Shown piece after piece: positions 6,421 through 18,816 of a stretch of DNA of 22,265 nucleotides. The DNA is from Nitrospirota bacterium. GTDB taxonomy: Bacteria; Nitrospirota; Thermodesulfovibrionia; Thermodesulfovibrionales; SM23-35. Each line of letters starts with the position of its first letter. Positions within the stretch are counted from its first letter, which is position 1. Location of the stretch: assembly GCA_029883145.1 (NCBI GenBank), contig JAOUJR010000001.1, positions 1-22,265 on the forward strand, read 5' to 3'. A model generated the notes under the pieces. It made no database searches, was not told the DNA's origin, and saw only the letters and a program-made list of their open reading frames with translations. A program made the translations under genes and the position numbers.

Positions 6421-7599
6421 TTACTCTCGGGCAATGGAAGCCTTGATCTTTTCTTTTTTGATAATGTTTTCAGCAAACCTGGAAGCCTCTTTCTTGTTCT
6501 CAAACTTACCGATTAAAACCCTGTAGAGTGTCTTCTTATCCTTTGGTGTGGTTGTATGGACAAAAGTCTCATAACCCTTTTCTTTATATTGTTTCGCAAG
6601 AGTTTCCGCATTATTCTTATTCTCAAATGCGCCGATCTGAACAGAATAAATTACCTTACCTGAGGGTTTCACCTCAGGTTGAGGTACAGGAGAAGTAGGG
6701 GCAGGTGAGGGGATAGAATCAGGTCTCTTTTCCACAATTGCTTCCTGTGGTTTTTGTTGTTCCTGAGAGGGAGCAATGTCAACAGGCTTTTCTTGAACAG
6801 TTTCAGGAGGCCTCACCGCAACTGGTGCTTGAACTTTTTCCCATGGCAATGGAACTATTTTAAACAGCACAATTCCTGCTGCGCCGAGTATAATAATTAC
6901 AACAACAGCAATAATCGGCACAAATAACCTCTTTTTCGTGTCTCTTCTTAAGGGTCTTTTCATTGTATAAGTCTTTTTAGGCTTTTTCTCTATAATTTCC
7001 TCAGGTTTTTCGTGAAGAATCTGTTTCACTGCAGCCTTATCTGAAGAGACTATTTCTTCTTCTTTCAGCCACTCCATAGTTTTATCAGAAACATCTCTCT
7101 CTTCATCAATCTCCTTTGGAATTTCAGGTATCACAGGTTCTTCGATAGCTATGGTTTGTTCACTTTCATCTGAACTGACATCCTCCTCTATAACAGGTTC
7201 TGTAACAGGCTCGACATGAGCAGATTTCTCACCAAGGACATTCTCAGTTTTTGAAATAAGTTCTTCAGGGCTAAAGGGTTTTTTAAGTGAATCGACAATG
7301 CCGTAAAGGGAGGTGTAGCGAGGATCTATCGTTCCTTTAAATGTAGTGAGGACAACAATGGGCACATTCCTGAGCGGCTCCATATCATGAATTTCTTTAC
7401 ACATCTCTAATCCGCTTGTACCGGCTATAGCAGGATTGACAAATATCAATGATGGGGTGACCTTTTGTGCCATAGTAATGCCAAGATCACTACTTGAGGC
7501 TGTGAAAACAAGATAATCTTCAGATTCCAGAGTTGATACAATCTTCTGTGTTGTCTCTGTATCAGTATCGATTACAAGAATTGTTCCGCGTATTTTAAT
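6421..7599 (-). CDS. Pseudo-receiver / transmembrane / SPOR-domain protein
   Basis: A 392-residue fusion. Residues 1-120 are a response-regulator receiver fold: start KIRGTILVIDTD, then FVNPAIAG, VVLTT and LKKPF. The phospho-acceptor Asp is replaced by Asn55 and one acidic-pocket Asp by Thr12, so it is probably not phosphorylated; Thr85 and Lys107 remain. A long acidic, proline-rich linker leads to a basic patch and one membrane helix (about 225-248), then a proline-rich stretch and a C-terminal SPOR domain (about 317-392: YSVQIGAF, LYRVLIGKF). The positive-inside rule puts the receiver in the cytoplasm and SPOR in the periplasm. SPOR domains bind glycan strands lacking peptides, as made by amidases. 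The first ATG (7473) would cut the receiver in half. The frame opens upstream to an ATT at 7599, with AGGAG at 7610-7606 six bases away, after an in-frame TAA. It is the last gene after the amidase and actin genes. Confidence 0.85.
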   Translation of the reverse strand: MKIRGTILVIDTDTETTQKIVSTLESEDYLVFTASSSDLGITMAQKVTPSLIFVNPAIAGTSGLEMCKEIHDMEPLRNVPIVVLTTFKGTIDPRYTSLYGIVDSLKKPFSPEELISKTENVLGEKSAHVEPVTEPVIEEDVSSDESEQTIAIEEPVIPEIPKEIDEERDVSDKTMEWLKEEEIVSSDKAAVKQILHEKPEEIIEKKPKKTYTMKRPLRRDTKKRLFVPIIAVVVIIILGAAGIVLFKIVPLPWEKVQAPVAVRPPETVQEKPVDIAPSQEQQKPQEAIVEKRPDSIPSPAPTSPVPQPEVKPSGKVIYSVQIGAFENKNNAETLAKQYKEKGYETFVHTTTPKDKKTLYRVLIGKFENKKEASRFAENIIKKEKIKASIARE

Positions 7600-7627
7600 A
7601 AATTACTCCTCTATAATAGATTCTATT
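7597..7627 (-). promoter_or_regulatory. Ribosome-binding site, ATT start and small palindrome
   Basis: Minus-strand AGGAG at 7610-7606 is followed by six bases and ATT at 7599-7597. No ATG, GTG or TTG lies in frame between the upstream TAA (7605-7603) and the conserved receiver strand. Immediately upstream is the palindrome AATAGA-T-TCTATT (7627-7615), which could fold next to the binding site and affect access. Translation could also be coupled to the actin gene that ends at 7638. Confidence 0.55.
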
Positions 7628-7637
7628 TCTATTGAGA

Positions 7638-8666
7638 TTATAATGGCTCCCAGTATTTTACAGGCATATCCAGTGCAAGTTTGAGTGCACCATCTGAGCC
7701 TGCGAAGAGAGGGTTTTCCACGTGCGTTACGTTACAGGGACCGTACTCTTTCAATGCATTCTGTAAGTATTCACCTATGCCTCTTATCAGACTGCAGCCG
7801 CCTGCAAGCACAATGTTGTTCTTTATCTTTATCTGGAATTCAGGGTCAAATCGTGCGATCATCTCAGTGGTCGTTTCTATTATTGCAGGAAGAATGCTTT
7901 CACACGCGCGTTTTATCTCATTCTTAATATCGTGAATAACCGGCTTTCCGTCAACAGGGATTTCTACATGAATTTCGCCGGACACGTCCCTTACAAAACT
8001 GTATTTTTCTTTAAATTGGCGGACCATATTTTTATTAAACCTTGAGTTGGGGTACTTCTCGGTTAAATAGCTGTAAAGCTGTTCATCAATGTAATCACCG
8101 GCAGTCAATATAGTTTTCTGGTCCTCTTCGGATGGTATAGTGCCATGCATAATACAGAAGTCAGTTGTGCCGGCACCTATATCTATGACAAGCGCATTGT
8201 TCAGCAGGTTCATACCGTAAGCTACTGCAAATGGTTCTGATACAACCATGAGTGAATGTGCAAATTCTGAAGCAGCCTTTCTGATCGCAAGCTTGTTTAC
8301 CTTCAGTGTATCAGCAGGCACTCCAACAACAGCATGGATTTTCTGTTCAGGCGAAGGTTTTGCGAGTTCAATCAGATGTTTAATAATTTCTTTTACTGCA
8401 TCTTCACTTTTTTCAATACCTTCTTTTATGACGCCATGTTCAAGGGGTCTACAAAGGTCAAGCGAGAGTCTGTTTTTAAGAGCCTCTGAGCCAAAGAGTA
8501 CAGGCTTCCCCACTACCTGTAACGAAATAAAGTCTTTAGGCCAACCGACGTAACTCTCAATCCATTCTCTTGTCAGGTTACTTGCAGAGATTGAACTCCT
8601 CGATGTTCCAAGGTCAATTCCAGCAAATAAGATGCTATCTTGCTGTTGTGTGTCTTTTTGCTTCAT
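7638..8666 (-). CDS. MamK-like bacterial actin
   Basis: A 342-residue actin-fold ATPase expected to form cytoplasmic filaments. The nucleotide-site motifs are clear: GIDLGTSRSS (16-25), VSEPFAVAYG with Glu144, VIDIGAGTTDF with Asp162, and VLAGGCSLIRGIG (286-298). It matches MamK from magnetotactic bacteria better than MreB, by my memory of those sequences. Shared points are VGWPKD near residue 40, KEKYSFV, ACESILPAIIE, and the C-terminal PVKYWEPL, which parallels PPQYWRQL. Glu144 and Asp162 correspond to the catalytic residues described in MamK. There is no membrane segment. AAAGGAG lies 9 bases before the ATG. The gene overlaps the end of the amidase gene by 32 bases, so the two are tightly linked. 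No other magnetosome genes are present, so a role in cell shape, division or positioning is more likely than magnetosome alignment. Confidence 0.85.
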   Translation of the reverse strand: MKQKDTQQQDSILFAGIDLGTSRSSISASNLTREWIESYVGWPKDFISLQVVGKPVLFGSEALKNRLSLDLCRPLEHGVIKEGIEKSEDAVKEIIKHLIELAKPSPEQKIHAVVGVPADTLKVNKLAIRKAASEFAHSLMVVSEPFAVAYGMNLLNNALVIDIGAGTTDFCIMHGTIPSEEDQKTILTAGDYIDEQLYSYLTEKYPNSRFNKNMVRQFKEKYSFVRDVSGEIHVEIPVDGKPVIHDIKNEIKRACESILPAIIETTTEMIARFDPEFQIKIKNNIVLAGGCSLIRGIGEYLQNALKEYGPCNVTHVENPLFAGSDGALKLALDMPVKYWEPL

Positions 8667-9681
8667 AGCTTTTTTCTCCTTTATTTAAATAATCCAGTAT
8701 GCCGGCTTGCAGATAACGTGCAATATTTTCTCTGTGGCTTTCAGTGTTCAGTTCTATCTCTTCCTCTCTGTTACTAAGGCAGGAGACTTCTACCAGGACA
8801 GCAGGCACATCTACACCTAACAAGACAACAAATGGCGCCCTCTTTATGCCAGAGTTATACACATTTCCATTGTGTTTTTTGCTGTTCAAAAAAAGAACTT
8901 TCTGTATAGAAGATGCAAGCTCTTTAGATTCCTGCAGTTTTAACTTATCGCCAATCTTCATGATTATCTCCTTGAAGTCGCTCAATCCATATTGTGAGCC
9001 TATATTTTCCCTTTCCGCAAGCTTCAGTGTTTTTGCGTCAGAAGACGGGCCGAAATAATACGTCTCGATAATATTTATGGGCTTTGAAGGCAAATAATTG
9101 AGGTGTAAAGATATAAAAAGATCTGCCCTGCCTAAGCGGGCTAATTCTACCCGTTTGTTAAGGGGGAGTGTAGAGTCTTGTTCATGAGTCATGAGCACAT
9201 TGTAATTGCCATATTTTTTAAGCCGCTCTCTTAGTCGCTTTGCTATGTCCAGTGCTATATCTTTCTCTTTAGTTCCCATCTTTCCTGCAGTTCCTGAGTC
9301 AGAGCCACCATGTCCCGGATCTATCATAATTGTTTTTACCTCTAAACCGAACACGCGACTGAGTGGTATGTCCGGACCGCTCAGAAAAGCCTTATAATCT
9401 GAAGGGCTGACTGATTTTTCAGCAGGCAGTTGTTGCAATTCGGTTCCGAGAGAAGAAGGTTCTTGTGTGATAAGGCTTGCTGTTATCTGTTTTTCTGGAA
9501 ATTCTGAAAAGAGTGAGAGGTTTTGGTAATTCCAATGTCCTAAAACAGCGAGCAATACTATGAAGAAAAACAAAAACATTTTTTTGAGAAAAGAGGGCGC
9601 TTTATCTGAGAGAGCGTTAGAATGTTTCCCGATTATCCTTAGATTGTCTTCATAGATACCCCTGAGAATAGCGTTCCTCAT
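8635..9681 (-). CDS. N-acetylmuramoyl-L-alanine amidase (Amidase_3), membrane-anchored
   Basis: A zinc amidase that cuts the bond between N-acetylmuramic acid and the stem peptide, leaving denuded glycan. Numbered from the ATG at 9681 (348 residues): IDPGHGGSDSG with His124, Glu139 in TKEKDIA, SLHLN with His193, and VEVSCLSN with catalytic Glu298. A hydrophobic segment (about 33-50) after a basic N-terminus anchors it in the inner membrane with the enzyme in the periplasm; there is no obvious cleavable signal or AMIN domain. A GTG at 9732 would add 17 residues but has no ribosome-binding site, while the ATG at 9681 follows an AAGAGAG sequence, so I prefer 9681. The long stretch between the third motif and catalytic Glu resembles the regulatory helix region of AmiB/AmiC-type enzymes, which need activation. 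It is followed by the overlapping actin gene. Confidence 0.9.
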   Translation of the reverse strand: MRNAILRGIYEDNLRIIGKHSNALSDKAPSFLKKMFLFFFIVLLAVLGHWNYQNLSLFSEFPEKQITASLITQEPSSLGTELQQLPAEKSVSPSDYKAFLSGPDIPLSRVFGLEVKTIMIDPGHGGSDSGTAGKMGTKEKDIALDIAKRLRERLKKYGNYNVLMTHEQDSTLPLNKRVELARLGRADLFISLHLNYLPSKPINIIETYYFGPSSDAKTLKLAERENIGSQYGLSDFKEIIMKIGDKLKLQESKELASSIQKVLFLNSKKHNGNVYNSGIKRAPFVVLLGVDVPAVLVEVSCLSNREEEIELNTESHRENIARYLQAGILDYLNKGEKSYEAKRHTTAR

Positions 9682-9766
9682 TTTTAGCTCTCTTTTTTTG
9701 GGGATCATAGTAAACATAATATTAAGATTCACTTTAACAATTTATTTTAAAAAATTCAATGAATAT

Positions 9767-10738
9767 TCACACTGTCACACCGTCTATTCTCGTAAGTCCT
9801 GCTTCTTTTGCCATACATATTGCGTCGCTGTATTCTCTTCCGGTAATCCTTCTGTTGAGAGGTGGGTTATCAAAAGCCTTAAAGCACGGGTGGTATTGAT
9901 CCATGATATTGATATAGGTATTTTTTGAAATTTCCTCAGCAATGAATTTTACCACACCTGCGGTACCTGCAGTCCCTTCTGGAAGCACAAGATGCCTCAC
10001 GAGCAGTCCTCTCTGAGCAATACCGTTTTTTATTACAAGATCCCCGACCTGTCGATGCATCTCTTTTAGTGTAGCCATTGCGACCTCAGGGTAATCTCTG
10101 GCATCTGAATATCTGAAAGCCATCTCAGGGTCATAATATTTAAAATCCGGCATGTAAATATCAACTACCCCATCAAGCAGCTTTATTGACTGCATGGATT
10201 CATATCCGCCGCAGTTATACACAACAGGTATATTCACTCCTTTTCCTGATACAATCTGTAAAGCCCTGAGTATCATTGGCATCTGATGCGTTGGTGTCAC
10301 GAAATTTATATTGTGACACCAACTACGCTGCAATGAGAGCATTATATCTGAAAATTTTTCAAAGGATACCTCAACGCCTTCCCCATAATGGCTAATCGAA
10401 TAATTCTGACAGAAGATACAGCCGAGGTTGCAATTGCCAAGGAAAATAGTTCCTGAACCAAATCTTCCCACAAGTGGTCTTTCCTCGCCAAAATGAGGTC
10501 CCCAGCTCGATATGAATGGTTTATTTTCAGTCCTGCAAAAACCTATATGGCCAGATGTTCTGTCAACCCTGCATTCCCTGGGACATAGGGTACATTCCTT
10601 TAAAATCTCCTCTGCTTCTCTGACCTTATCAGTCAACACTCCGGGAGGGAGCAGGAGATAGGATGGAGTGAAATTATCTTTTATGCTTTCCACAATTTTA
10701 TTTGGATTCTGTTTTATATCCTCAGACCAAAACTGCAT
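9767..10738 (-). CDS. Radical SAM protein, PflX-like (COG1313 type)
   Basis: A 323-residue radical SAM protein. The cluster motif is GNCNLGCIFCQNY, giving Cys103, Cys107 and Cys110 in the CX3CX2C pattern that binds the 4Fe-4S cluster and S-adenosylmethionine. An extra N-terminal set, CTLCPRECRVDR with Cys49/52/56 and Cys68 (GFCRT), is typical of the PflX-like COG1313 group, related to pyruvate formate-lyase activating enzymes. The target of this group is not established as far as I know. There is no Shine-Dalgarno sequence before the ATG at 10738. It is the first gene of the minus-strand run leading to the amidase, actin and SPOR genes, with 85 bases to the preferred amidase start. Whether it belongs functionally with them is unclear. 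Confidence 0.85.
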   Translation of the reverse strand: MQFWSEDIKQNPNKIVESIKDNFTPSYLLLPPGVLTDKVREAEEILKECTLCPRECRVDRTSGHIGFCRTENKPFISSWGPHFGEERPLVGRFGSGTIFLGNCNLGCIFCQNYSISHYGEGVEVSFEKFSDIMLSLQRSWCHNINFVTPTHQMPMILRALQIVSGKGVNIPVVYNCGGYESMQSIKLLDGVVDIYMPDFKYYDPEMAFRYSDARDYPEVAMATLKEMHRQVGDLVIKNGIAQRGLLVRHLVLPEGTAGTAGVVKFIAEEISKNTYINIMDQYHPCFKAFDNPPLNRRITGREYSDAICMAKEAGLTRIDGVTV

Positions 10739-14375: not shown

Positions 14376-14714
14376 TTATTCACCTATTATTTCATTCAGT
14401 CCCTCAACTATTTGAGCTAATTCCTCCGGAGAGGCTCTGCCCATCAGTTTCCCGATCCTCTCTACTGAGAGTGTCCGAATTTGACTTATTTTGACCCACG
14501 AACGCTTCGGCAAATCACCCGTATTTAACTCCAAGGTTAGCGGAAAACCAGCGCGTTGAGGTTGACTGGTAATTGCTACTGCTATCACAGTCCCAGAATG
14601 TTCGTTAAAAACGTCATGGCTTAAAATCAAAACAGGCCGTAAGCCTGCTTGCTCACGGCCTCGCACAGGATTTAAATCTGCCCAGCGAATATCACCCCTC
14701 AGTATTCGGGCCAT
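14376..14714 (-). CDS. MazF/PemK-type toxin (endoribonuclease)
   Basis: A 112-residue protein of the MazF/PemK family, which cleaves mRNA at short sequence motifs and arrests growth when free of antitoxin. Family hallmarks are RGDIRWADLNPVRGREQ (6-22), GLRPVLILS (24-32), IAVAITSQ (44-51) and WVKISQIRTLSVERIGK (72-88). The catalytic arginine and Thr/Ser of MazF are expected in GLRP and AITS and are present. Its start overlaps the end of the antitoxin gene by 16 bases, the usual antitoxin-first arrangement, which keeps the toxin coupled to the antitoxin. It looks intact. Cleavage specificity cannot be told from sequence. Confidence 0.92.
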   Translation of the reverse strand: MARILRGDIRWADLNPVRGREQAGLRPVLILSHDVFNEHSGTVIAVAITSQPQRAGFPLTLELNTGDLPKRSWVKISQIRTLSVERIGKLMGRASPEELAQIVEGLNEIIGE

Positions 14715-14941
14715 TCAGTCAAATCCTTAGTTAAACCTTCTTCTGCCATCGCCTTTTCAAAGTTCGGGTCAAGCTTTCTACATTCTCTTGCTAAACGGCT
14801 ACGTTCTATTCTTTCCAGCTTTTCTTTTACGGCTTCCTGGATTGCTTGACTCCGACTGGAAAACATGTGTCCTGTGACGAGGTGGTCTAATCGTTTGACA
14901 GAGTCTTCTTCCAGAGTTATTGCAATTTTTGTCTTACTCAT
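14699..14941 (-). CDS. Ribbon-helix-helix antitoxin (MazE-like)
   Basis: An 80-residue protein. The N-terminal half (KIAITLEEDSVKRLDHLV, then SSRSQAIQEAVKEKLER) fits a ribbon-helix-helix DNA-binding fold: a beta strand, then two helices. The acidic C-terminal half (DPNFEKAMAEEGLTKDLTEW) is the kind of flexible tail that wraps the toxin. GGAGG lies about 6 bases before the ATG at 14941. It precedes and overlaps the MazF-like toxin gene. As usual for such pairs it should repress its own promoter, and a small palindrome is present there. Confidence 0.9.
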   Translation of the reverse strand: MSKTKIAITLEEDSVKRLDHLVTGHMFSSRSQAIQEAVKEKLERIERSRLARECRKLDPNFEKAMAEEGLTKDLTEWPEY

Positions 14942-15348: not shown

Positions 15349-16020
15349 CTACAGATTGCTTTTCCCGATGTTACATTGTTCACAAAGTGTTTGTAAATTT
15401 TCTATTACAGTTTCTCCACCTTTGGACCATGAATGTATATGGTCAATCTGCAAGATTACACCAATATGGGTAGCTGGACTTCTGCCGCACATTTGACATT
15501 TAAAATTATCTCTTCTCATAACAAAAAATCGCATGCGCCATGAAATCTCCCTTTTCGTTTTGTGCAATCTTTCCACAGGTGTTATTTTCGGTTGGCGGAC
15601 AACAGGGATTTCCTCTATGTTTTCTGGTGACTGATTTACAAAACTAATAAAGCTTTTTAGTGCATTGCGCCATGAACCAAACCTTCGCGTATATGCTTTT
15701 ACGCCATAACGTGAAAGAGGCTTTTTCATCTCTCTAAATCTTGGCTGTTGCCCTAATGTTCGCCAAACCGCCTCCAGATTTTCAAAAAGTTCCTCCACGG
15801 TAGTGCCATATTTGATCGACTTTTCCAGTCCAGACAATTCTAAAACTTGTAACCAAGAATCAAATCTCTTAAAAATTGTTCGAGAATGAAATTTCCCATA
15901 TTTATCATACTCGCGTGTTGTAAGGGTATTTTTGTTCAATCTTTTTGCTACAGCGCGGGCATCCTCTATGAATTCTTCAAGTGGCGTATTTCTTTGAAAA
16001 TTATCTAATTCAAATTTCAT
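15349..16020 (-). CDS. HNH endonuclease with homing-type DNA-binding repeats
   Basis: A 223-residue putative DNA endonuclease. Two N-terminal repeats (about 8-66 and 73-126) share the pattern of a helical block, a Y/F-G-K/V stretch and RFxSWxxAL (KRFDSWLQVL, RRFGSWRNAL). This resembles the homing-endonuclease-associated HNH repeat thought to read DNA. The C-terminus is an HNH nuclease: Cys175-x2-Cys178, LQIDHIHSWSKGG with catalytic His194, Asn208 in ENLQTLC, and Cys213-x2-Cys216, ending NIGKSN. GAGG lies 3 bases before the ATG. It is free-standing, not in an intron or intein that I can see, and lies beside a repeat and a toxin-antitoxin pair, so it is likely mobile. A restriction-like or repair role is possible but unsupported. 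Confidence 0.85.
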   Translation of the reverse strand: MKFELDNFQRNTPLEEFIEDARAVAKRLNKNTLTTREYDKYGKFHSRTIFKRFDSWLQVLELSGLEKSIKYGTTVEELFENLEAVWRTLGQQPRFREMKKPLSRYGVKAYTRRFGSWRNALKSFISFVNQSPENIEEIPVVRQPKITPVERLHKTKREISWRMRFFVMRRDNFKCQMCGRSPATHIGVILQIDHIHSWSKGGETVIENLQTLCEQCNIGKSNL

Positions 16021-17180: not shown

Positions 17181-18728
17181 TTAGCCCTGGAGTAATAACT
17201 CATGATTTTTTACTATCCAGTTCACAGCCTCGGTAAGGTTCTCCGCAATAAAATCAGCATATAGTGAATCCTTTACCACACCTGTCTTCACCAGAATTCC
17301 CTTTGCACCCACTGCCTTTGCGAGAAGCATCTCTGTTTCTTTATCTCCTACAATAAAAGATTTTTTAAAGTCTATCCCATGTTGAGCCCTTGCTTTAAGA
17401 AGCATTTGAGGTTCGGGTTTTCTGCAGGGACAGTGTTCTTCTGGATGATGCGGACAAAAGTAAAAATCATCAAAGTTGTATCGTTCAATAAAAATATTAT
17501 TTATATATCGGACAAAATCTTCTTCAATAATTCCTTTCGCAATACCTGATTGGTTGCTCACCCCGATGAGTTTAAACCCTCTTCCTTTAAGAGACTTTAC
17601 CTCCTCAATGTCTAAGAAAGGATGGAAGTCATCATACTTATTGAGATAGCCCACATCTTTACAGAGGGTCCCATCCCTGTCAAAAAAAACTGCAGGCCTG
17701 TCTGGCAATATCTTTTTTATTCCATGATACACATCATCTGAGGTTATTGCATACATACATCTTAAATCATTATCTTTACACGTACGTTCAAAACAGGGAC
17801 TGCATGAGATATCAGGATGTATTACCACGTTACTGCCTCCGTCTGCCTTGGGCAGAGGGCCTGTCAATTTTGGATCTGTAGAACAAAATAGTGCAACAAG
17901 AGGTGTTCCTACTGCATAGGCAATGTGGAGTGGACCTGAATCATTGGTAAGAAAGACATCACATTCTGAGATGAATGAAATAAGTTCCCGCAGAGATGTC
18001 CTTCCTGCGAGAAGGAGTTTATTTTCAGGGATATGTTTATCAATTTCCTGTGCAATGTCTACTTCATTCTTTCCCCCAAAGATTATCACACTTCCGTCAG
18101 TATCTCGTATAAACCAGTTCGCAATCTCAGCAAACCTCTCAGGAAACCACCTCTTCGCAGAACCATATGTTGCACCAGGATTAATTCCTAAGACAGGTCT
18201 TTTGATATCTTTCAATAGCTTTCTCGCACTCAATCGTTCATCAAGTGTGAGATATATGTAGGGATCAGAATATTCTTCTTTTATTCCTAACTGTTCAAGA
18301 AGATTCAGGTAGTAGTTCACCTGATGTACTTTCCCTGCATTTTGAGGCACGGGGACTGCTGTGGTAAGAAGAAAACCTCTGCCATCACTGCGATACCCTG
18401 TTCTCTCCTTTATTCGCGCAAGAAATGTAATCAGGGCAGCATCAAATGCATTTTGAAACAAGATTGCACTGCAGAAATCTTTTTTATTCAACATCCATGA
18501 AAGTTTTATTTTTCCGATAATGCCTTTGTGTTCATCGTTGTAAATTATTATTTCGTCTACATTTGGGTTATTTTCAAAGATCTGTGATACCCACGGTTTT
18601 ACAAGGATAGAGATTTTTGCTTCAGGCATGGCTTTTCTCAGGGACCTTAATGCAGACAGTGTCATTACCGCATCTCCTATCCAGTTCACTCCCCTGACAA
18701 GTATATTCCTGCATGATTTGTTCAACAT
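17181..18728 (-). CDS. Heptosyltransferase II fused to heptose bisphosphatase GmhB
   Basis: A two-enzyme fusion of 515 residues from the ATG at 18728. Residues 1-340 are a family 9 glycosyltransferase of the WaaF type: NILVRGVNWIGDAVMT (8-23), GATYGSAKRWFPERF, LTNDSGPLHIAYAVG (260-274) and CSPCFERTC. Residues about 343-515 are a HAD phosphatase like GmhB, which removes the 7-phosphate from heptose 1,7-bisphosphate. It shows FFDRDGT with Asp350 and Asp352, VSNQSGIAKG, the zinc loop CPHH...CPC (Cys425, His427, Cys433, Cys435) and FIVGDKETEM. One protein thus carries a step in making ADP-heptose and the step that uses it. A TTG at 18746 would add six residues but lacks a ribosome-binding site. 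The preferred ATG matches the family start, though GAGG is 12 bases away. waaC follows 6 bases after the stop. Confidence 0.92.
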   Translation of the reverse strand: MLNKSCRNILVRGVNWIGDAVMTLSALRSLRKAMPEAKISILVKPWVSQIFENNPNVDEIIIYNDEHKGIIGKIKLSWMLNKKDFCSAILFQNAFDAALITFLARIKERTGYRSDGRGFLLTTAVPVPQNAGKVHQVNYYLNLLEQLGIKEEYSDPYIYLTLDERLSARKLLKDIKRPVLGINPGATYGSAKRWFPERFAEIANWFIRDTDGSVIIFGGKNEVDIAQEIDKHIPENKLLLAGRTSLRELISFISECDVFLTNDSGPLHIAYAVGTPLVALFCSTDPKLTGPLPKADGGSNVVIHPDISCSPCFERTCKDNDLRCMYAITSDDVYHGIKKILPDRPAVFFDRDGTLCKDVGYLNKYDDFHPFLDIEEVKSLKGRGFKLIGVSNQSGIAKGIIEEDFVRYINNIFIERYNFDDFYFCPHHPEEHCPCRKPEPQMLLKARAQHGIDFKKSFIVGDKETEMLLAKAVGAKGILVKTGVVKDSLYADFIAENLTEAVNWIVKNHELLLQG

Positions 18729-18816
18729 ATAATAGTTTAACCTCAATCATACAGAAATTTCATGGCAAAGACATGACTTTTTCTTGACCGGAGATTCAAT
18801 CCACAAGTAAAATTGT

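Follow-up and report, generated by a model that had tools for sequence, protein, structure and literature searches.

Three consecutive genes of a Nitrospirota bacterium (GenBank assembly GCA_029883145.1; genome of 2.23 Mb, 86.6% complete) encode a membrane-anchored peptidoglycan amidase, a MamK-like actin and a bitopic protein with a receiver domain, a transmembrane (TM) helix and a SPOR domain, here called REC-TM-SPOR protein. They lie on a stretch of 22,265 nucleotides (nt) of contig 436 (JAOUJR010000001.1), referred to as the window. The locus raises the question of what an actin does beside a cell wall hydrolase, and which of the three proteins joins the two sides of the membrane. An earlier, sequence-only reading of the same DNA had placed the SPOR protein at the centre of the system; the comparison of related genomes described here places the amidase-actin pair there.

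Open reading frames together with Pfam and NCBIfam profile searches confirmed three genes on one strand with the domains and the spacing that the sequence-only reading had reported. Amidase, actin and REC-TM-SPOR gene follow each other in this order on the minus strand; the reading frames of the first two overlap, and 38 nt separate the actin from the third gene.

The distribution of the genes was determined with each of the three proteins as query against 101 genomes, the window's own and 100 relatives. This set and the wider genome draws are samples, and many of the assemblies are incomplete. An actin with at least 66% identity is present in 22 of the 101 genomes and one with 45-48% identity in 11, with MreB-level matches or none elsewhere. 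Strong amidase matches (E <1e-88) occur in exactly the same 22 genomes, and both proteins are absent at these levels from the other 79. These amidase matches are nearly full-length in 21 genomes and begin at residue 100 in one (G034); the next-best matches reach 1e-42, and none of them starts before residue 93. The amidase gene is located directly upstream of the actin gene in 22/22 loci, and the co-occurrence of the two is far beyond chance. A wider draw of 395 Nitrospirota genomes contained the actin at 66% identity or more in 35 genomes and at 42-48% in 19, and in the union of both draws the amidase adjoins the actin in each of the 37 Nitrospirota genomes with an actin of at least 66% identity.

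The pair is not confined to this phylum. A locus of Acidobacteria RBG_13_68_16 (L065) prompted a draw of 396 Acidobacteriota genomes, 41 of which hold the actin (E 1e-55 or better). The amidase is present in all 39 that were inspected (38 wide loci plus G402, seen as L065/L101; G535 and G679 were left out), although it is split over two reading frames in L158 and cut by the contig end in L152. The pair is also found in two genomes of Aminicenantes (L058, L059). In the phylum of genome G405 such an actin occurs in 13 of 247 genomes, with the amidase in G996, none in 11 and an upstream region too short for judgement in G405 itself. MamK-like actins are common in Planctomycetota (89 of 246 genomes; e.g. 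L215-L243), and no amidase was seen in the 30 loci inspected from these 89, three of which (L217, L219, L227) extend less than 700 nt upstream.

Path distances in the amidase tree and the actin tree are closely correlated (r 0.974 over 84 rows, with the amidase taken from residue 111 on). Both trees place the Acidobacteriota pairs L174 and L175 within or nearest to the Nitrospirota, with the Aminicenantes pairs L058 and L059 beside G037, G024 and G036. Because these four loci group with Nitrospirota for either protein, amidase and actin appear to have travelled as a pair.

The amidase has a feature that would account for such a bond. Some 45 residues precede its TM helix, and the first part of this cytoplasmic tail is more conserved than the helix itself. 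Mean information over 84 amidases is 2.06 bits per column for residues 12-31, 0.98 for the next 15 juxtamembrane residues, 1.40 for the TM helix, 1.14 for the periplasmic linker and 2.60 for the catalytic domain. Asn25 forms the sole invariant column outside the catalytic domain, being present in all 81 rows that have a residue there, and the same 81 rows show Arg or Lys at position 14. The conserved positions 14, 17, 18, 21, 22 and 25 share one face of a helix; AlphaFold2 places a tail helix at residues 7-28 with modest confidence (predicted local distance difference test, pLDDT, 55 to 72 by block, from 29 sequences). A regular expression for the tail motif, composed once the tails were known and searched ahead of the TM helix as a guard against forced alignment, matched 77 of 83 tails versus 0.12 expected from shuffles. 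Among the six misses, L033, L152 and L158 are truncated or broken reading frames, and L067, L150 and L153 keep the Asn with one residue changed. A search with residues 1-75 against 5.8 billion proteins yielded 15 proteins among 43 candidates, all of them Amidase_3 proteins, with the window's own included.

The catalytic residues are intact, with His136, Glu151, His205 and Glu310 invariant across the amidases; these we take to be the zinc ligands and the catalytic glutamate. In contrast to the AmiA/AmiC type with its signal peptide and frequent AMIN domain, the paired amidase has a TM helix behind a conserved tail and no AMIN hit in Pfam. Of the 22 pair genomes, 21 have a second Amidase_3 match and G078 a single one, and the paralogues begin, by reading, with a signal-like helix. 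The tail motif occurs in none of 20 Amidase_3 paralogues taken from 20 of the 22 pair genomes, and on this ground an ordinary septal amidase was rejected; the paired amidase is thus an extra enzyme. From a conserved cytoplasmic tail on a periplasmic enzyme we infer a cytoplasmic partner, and since the actin is the only cytoplasmic protein always encoded beside the amidase, the tail would dock on the actin.

It could be argued instead that co-expression within one envelope pathway is all that links the two genes, with the tail binding the membrane, the divisome or a chaperone and the actin acting separately. Operon neighbours often share a pathway without touching each other, and the basic stretch behind the tail could bind lipid. 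Such an arrangement is improbable, as neither gene was found alone in the 101 genomes, the loci L058, L059, L174 and L175 group as if they had moved paired, lipid binding needs no invariant Asn, and the motif is missing from the paralogous amidases.

We prefer docking on the actin, and consider it rather probable that an actin scaffold positions the peptidoglycan amidase through the enzyme's own tail, with the SPOR protein reading the product. The MamK-like actin would polymerise at the inner face of the membrane, and the N-terminal cytoplasmic helix of the TM-anchored amidase would dock on it. The actin would in this way set the sites in the envelope at which stem peptides are cleaved by the amidase, with denuded glycan left behind. 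Where present, the REC-TM-SPOR protein would bind the denuded glycan and may report or reinforce the site from the membrane.

A MamK-like actin also invites the suggestion that the locus belongs to a magnetosome or another organelle, or is a remnant of one, with MamK in its usual role. The NCBIfam MamK model (NF040964) does name the window actin, though narrowly, with 407.3 bits against a cut-off of 400, and the closest solved structure is that of MamK (5jyg, E 1.6e-86). Two clade mates from Acidobacteriota that were scored stay below that cut-off (L065 with 372.2 bits, L173 with 355.9 bits). The window actin reaches neither the MreB model NF010539 (90.2 versus 293 bits) nor the BeeR model (219.6 versus 530). 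MamP, the single gene used as magnetosome marker in the 101 genomes, was found in 11 of them, exactly those with the actin of 45-48% identity (one above the curated cut-off, ten at E 1e-62 or better), and by profile search in none of the 22 pair genomes. The 15 window proteins scanned include no further mam gene product.

The actin tree points the same way. It comprises 102 rows from a quick IQ-TREE search with SH-aLRT support and excludes short and near-identical rows as well as those scoring below 200 bits (such as L071-L085). The paired actins fall into a single clade with 84 rows (SH-aLRT 95), separate from the actins of 45-48% identity, from f3-type actins and from those of Planctomycetota. 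MamK of strain AMB-1 lies outside the clade on a long branch, its exact placement being unsure. Sixteen rows of the tree were labelled as lacking the amidase; the three of these inside the clade (L139, L142, L161) are artefacts of over-long reading frames, with the amidase directly upstream in each. Of 16 loci outside the paired clade, 13 have no amidase, and the remaining three (L026, L176, L177) allow no judgement. On the distribution of MamP and the actin tree a magnetosome remnant was rejected, and an organelle role of any kind is given next to no weight here. Several positions separate paired from unpaired actins, e.g. G83, R129 and E256, the last of which AMB-1 MamK shares; they hint at a possible interface and are not counted as evidence.

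The third gene is less firmly attached. The sequence-only reading had made its product the essential link, with the SPOR domain binding denuded glycan outside and the receiver binding the actin filament inside. Of the 37 Nitrospirota pairs, 29 do have the REC-TM-SPOR gene as a neighbour, with the contig ending inside the SPOR part in L018 and L087 and the gene divided between two frames in L019; one further pair is undecided at a contig end (L007, G070). The amidase-actin order is kept in 37 of 37. The neighbourhood is conserved, so that rare co-occurrence of the genes in related genomes, which would have spoken against that reading, was not observed. All 22 pair genomes among the 101 contain a REC-TM-SPOR protein, 17 in adjacent position, one undecided and four elsewhere in the genome (G024, G036, G042, G060), which favours it as a member of the system. 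In the Acidobacteriota, other TM-SPOR proteins occupy the same place, and a Geobacteraceae actin outside the paired clade (L069/L177) lies between two receiver-like proteins, of which the upstream one was recognized only by reading.

Against the SPOR protein as the link stands that its gene is not adjacent in seven of the 37 pairs (L009, L012, L020, L022, L095, L096, L098) and that at least 19 of the 79 pair-less genomes also hold a REC-TM-SPOR protein. The latter number is a lower bound from at most 18 candidates scored per genome at an E limit of 1e-20; of the 21 pair-less genomes with a match, G026 and G038 have a receiver without SPOR domain. One of the pair-less genomes, G016, carries a broken actin remnant beside its REC-TM-SPOR gene, and in another, G023, the REC-TM-SPOR gene directly follows a radical-SAM gene homologous to the one preceding the window amidase. 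On these two arrangements it appears that the pair can be lost while the REC-TM-SPOR gene stays.

The receiver itself also speaks against a signalling link. A Response_reg domain is present as the sequence-only reading had stated, but Asn replaces the Asp of the phospho-acceptor site at residue 55. All 34 aligned copies, the window's included, have N, K, R, S or E at this site, and phospho-signalling through the receiver was rejected for them; the more distant L178 keeps the Asp. In the AlphaFold2 model the pseudo-receiver retains the ordinary receiver fold, and the receiver of FrzS is among the best structure matches. The protein has the bitopic layout of FtsN with a C-terminal SPOR domain, the N-in orientation being deduced from the basic flank, and scores 45 on the FtsN equivalog model against a cut-off of 107.65. 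With PilZ-bearing proteins at the same position in other pairs, and an amidase that co-occurs perfectly with the actin, the receiver as link to the actin was not supported in the form proposed, and an essential SPOR link is regarded as unlikely.

Proteins of the REC-TM-SPOR type, with 350 to 660 amino acids (aa), form a widespread family of their own in this bacterial order, with or without the pair (L183-L193, L197, L264-L268, L271-L276). In L264 and L265 a second SPOR protein is encoded directly downstream.

Other loci fill the place behind the pair differently. A receiver-PilZ protein takes the place of the SPOR gene in L022/L196. The Acidobacteriota TM-SPOR proteins have a different cytoplasmic part and were recognized by Pfam in L065, L138, L140 and L158 and by reading in L139 and L141; all six show a clear hydrophobic stretch. 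A PilZ protein is next in L148, L154, L155 and L173 (Pfam), with a TM stretch that is clear in L155 and L173, borderline in L148 and weak in L154. The place thus often appears to hold a bitopic envelope protein with exchangeable parts. The C-terminal end of the PilZ proteins resembles an AMIN domain by eye, an assignment that was not confirmed (one of five at E 0.018, below the cut-off; profile search against PDB unconvincing). The PilZ domains are a possible connection to cyclic di-GMP (c-di-GMP).

Several of these observations also weigh against positioning of the amidase by the actin as set out above. The scatter of the REC-TM-SPOR gene, non-adjacent in some pairs and present without the pair elsewhere, means that this step is not tied to the actin, and in many other Acidobacteriota pairs, by reading, an unrelated gene comes next, several having no adjoining envelope gene. 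The tail could have another partner, be it a different cytoplasmic protein or the membrane, and a contact map would need more than 84 related sequences. The docking site poses a further difficulty. In FtsA and PilM it is the IA-IC cleft, according to the available part of PMC7613929, and the close MamK relative BeeR has the canonical domains Ia, Ib, IIa and IIb in the first part of the text of PMC11929497; as far as these sources go, the paired actins would need a different site.

Positioning of the amidase by the actin through the tail is kept as the preferred explanation, and a broader proposal can be attached to it more tentatively, with slightly more doubt than conviction. The actin clade of Nitrospirota and Acidobacteriota may exist to steer a hydrolase, with the amidase as the membrane-spanning cargo or anchor of the filament by way of its helical tail with the invariant Asn. 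Bitopic proteins that can replace one another, namely those of the pseudo-receiver-SPOR type, other SPOR proteins and PilZ proteins whose end may be AMIN-like, might then tune it from the cut wall and from signals of which c-di-GMP is an example.

The coordinates of the features are summarized in Table 1.

Table 1. Features of the amidase-actin locus, with positions in the window
Feature	Position	Strand	Basis
Amidase, Amidase_3 N-acetylmuramoyl-L-alanine amidase, membrane-anchored, 360 aa	8635..9717	-	PF01520 E 2.1e-43, 148.8 bits (read from 9681); AmiC 4bin E 6.1e-32; relatives align from 9717
Amidase cytoplasmic tail, residues 12-31, motif ~[RK]xx[IL][LI]xx[AV]xx[DE]N	9625..9684	-	Conservation; Asn25 codon 9643-9645
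Amidase single TM helix, residues ~47-64 (predicted)	9526..9579	-	Hydropathy of relatives; AlphaFold2 helix 42-69, block pLDDT 70, 83, 51
Periplasmic amidase domain	8683..9351	-	His136, Glu151, His205, Glu310 invariant
MamK-like actin, 342 aa, in amidase-paired clade	7638..8666	-	NF040964 407.3 bits; best solved structure 5jyg; tree
Amidase/actin frame overlap, 32 nt	8635..8666	-	Sequence
Bitopic pseudo-receiver-TM-SPOR protein, 392 aa, probable ATT start	6421..7599	-	Response_reg 53.2 bits, SPOR 61.4 bits; AlphaFold2 model
Shine-Dalgarno-like AGGAG ahead of ATT 7599	7606..7610	-	Sequence
Cytoplasmic pseudo-receiver domain, Asn at phospho-acceptor (residue 55, codon 7435-7437)	7249..7581	-	Pfam, alignment, AlphaFold2 model
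SPOR-protein TM helix, residues 226-248 (predicted)	6856..6924	-	AlphaFold2 helix, low to middling confidence
Periplasmic SPOR domain, residues 318-387	6439..6648	-	PF05036 E 1e-16; pLDDT mostly >90

The gene coordinates of the sequence-only reading proved correct overall, with the exception of two starts. The amidase very probably begins at ATG 9717 (or 9708) and not at 9681, because its relatives align upstream of 9681; that start lies inside the conserved tail and removes part of it. At the 5' end of the third gene, none of the codons ATG, GTG and TTG occurs ahead of the conserved first strand. Because the first strand and helix of the receiver are conserved and AGGAG is found at 7610-7606, the gene likely starts at ATT 7599, unless there is an assembly error at this point; most of its relatives have an ATG one codon after the position of this ATT. 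A scan for promoters and terminators found sites no more often than in shuffled sequence.

Directly upstream of the window amidase lies a radical-SAM gene (AmmeMemoSam-like, below the cut-off; 9767-10738, minus strand). It was considered as a part of the unit and rejected, being located upstream of the amidase in L031 (same place as L002) and beside the SPOR gene in L189, and a neighbour in none of the other loci scanned. Elsewhere in the window, all on the minus strand, a PemK/MazF-like toxin gene overlaps a gene for a ribbon-helix-helix antitoxin-like protein (14376-14941; Pfam), forming a type II toxin-antitoxin pair. An HNH endonuclease with homing-endonuclease-associated repeats (HNH_repeat 88.8 bits; 15349-16020) is encoded between this pair and the glycosyltransferase genes, and a glycosyltransferase family 9 (heptosyltransferase) domain is fused in-frame to a HAD-like hydrolase domain (17181-18746).

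Bacterial actins are known to position the synthases of the wall (MreB) and to organise the division machinery (FtsA), and the spatial confinement of wall hydrolases is mostly explained by periplasmic activators. The locus suggests a so far undescribed means by which wall cutting is directed from the cytoplasm. If the proposed mechanism is true, there would be a direct inside-to-outside route for placing wall cutting, in which the hydrolase carries its own tail beside its own actin, and a function would be suggested for a branch of MamK-like actins outside magnetosomes. To our knowledge, it would be the first case of a cytoskeletal filament reached by a hydrolase that crosses the membrane itself. 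The pair also yields a small candidate contact between a peptide and an actin that is open to testing in vitro. The sequence-only reading knew of no described system with the three genes, in agreement with our failure to find a description of the amidase-actin pair in the open-licence literature, the range covered here, to which subscription papers and preprints do not belong. The term amidase has no occurrence in the available part of PMC10653835, which deals with diverse magnetosome actins.

Among known systems, MreBH of Bacillus subtilis, which is reported to direct the cell wall hydrolase LytE, is a precedent for an actin homologue steering a hydrolase; LytE is a secreted endopeptidase with no known cytoplasmic tail, and MreBH is an actin of the MreB family. 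The divisome of Escherichia coli likewise has an actin relative, FtsA, together with the bitopic SPOR protein FtsN and septal amidases of the Amidase_3 type, whose product is the SPOR ligand. The septal amidases of E. coli are secreted. In that divisome FtsN carries the tail and FtsA is the actin, whereas the locus described here has a MamK-like actin and a conserved tail on the amidase itself. The PilM-PilN system of type IV pili uses an actin family different from that of the paired actin, and we know of no hydrolase in it. FtsA binds the short cytoplasmic tail of the bitopic FtsN, and the actin relative PilM binds a cytoplasmic tail of about 30 residues of the bitopic PilN (PMC7613929, available part). 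To the extent covered there, these cases give a precedent that supports docking of the amidase tail on the actin.

On the periplasmic side, the closest parallel is RgsS-AmiC of Sinorhizobium meliloti, in which amidase-processed peptidoglycan is the landmark for a SPOR protein; a dedicated actin partner is not named in the abstract and outline of PMC7822825, the parts on which this comparison is based. BeeR of Verrucomicrobiota is a MamK-related actin of non-magnetotactic bacteria with unknown function, and the first part of the text of PMC11929497 makes no mention of an amidase. MamK of magnetotactic bacteria belongs to the closest described actin family to that of the window, from which the paired actins differ in that mamP is absent from the 22 pair genomes, in forming a separate clade and in having the amidase gene adjoining.

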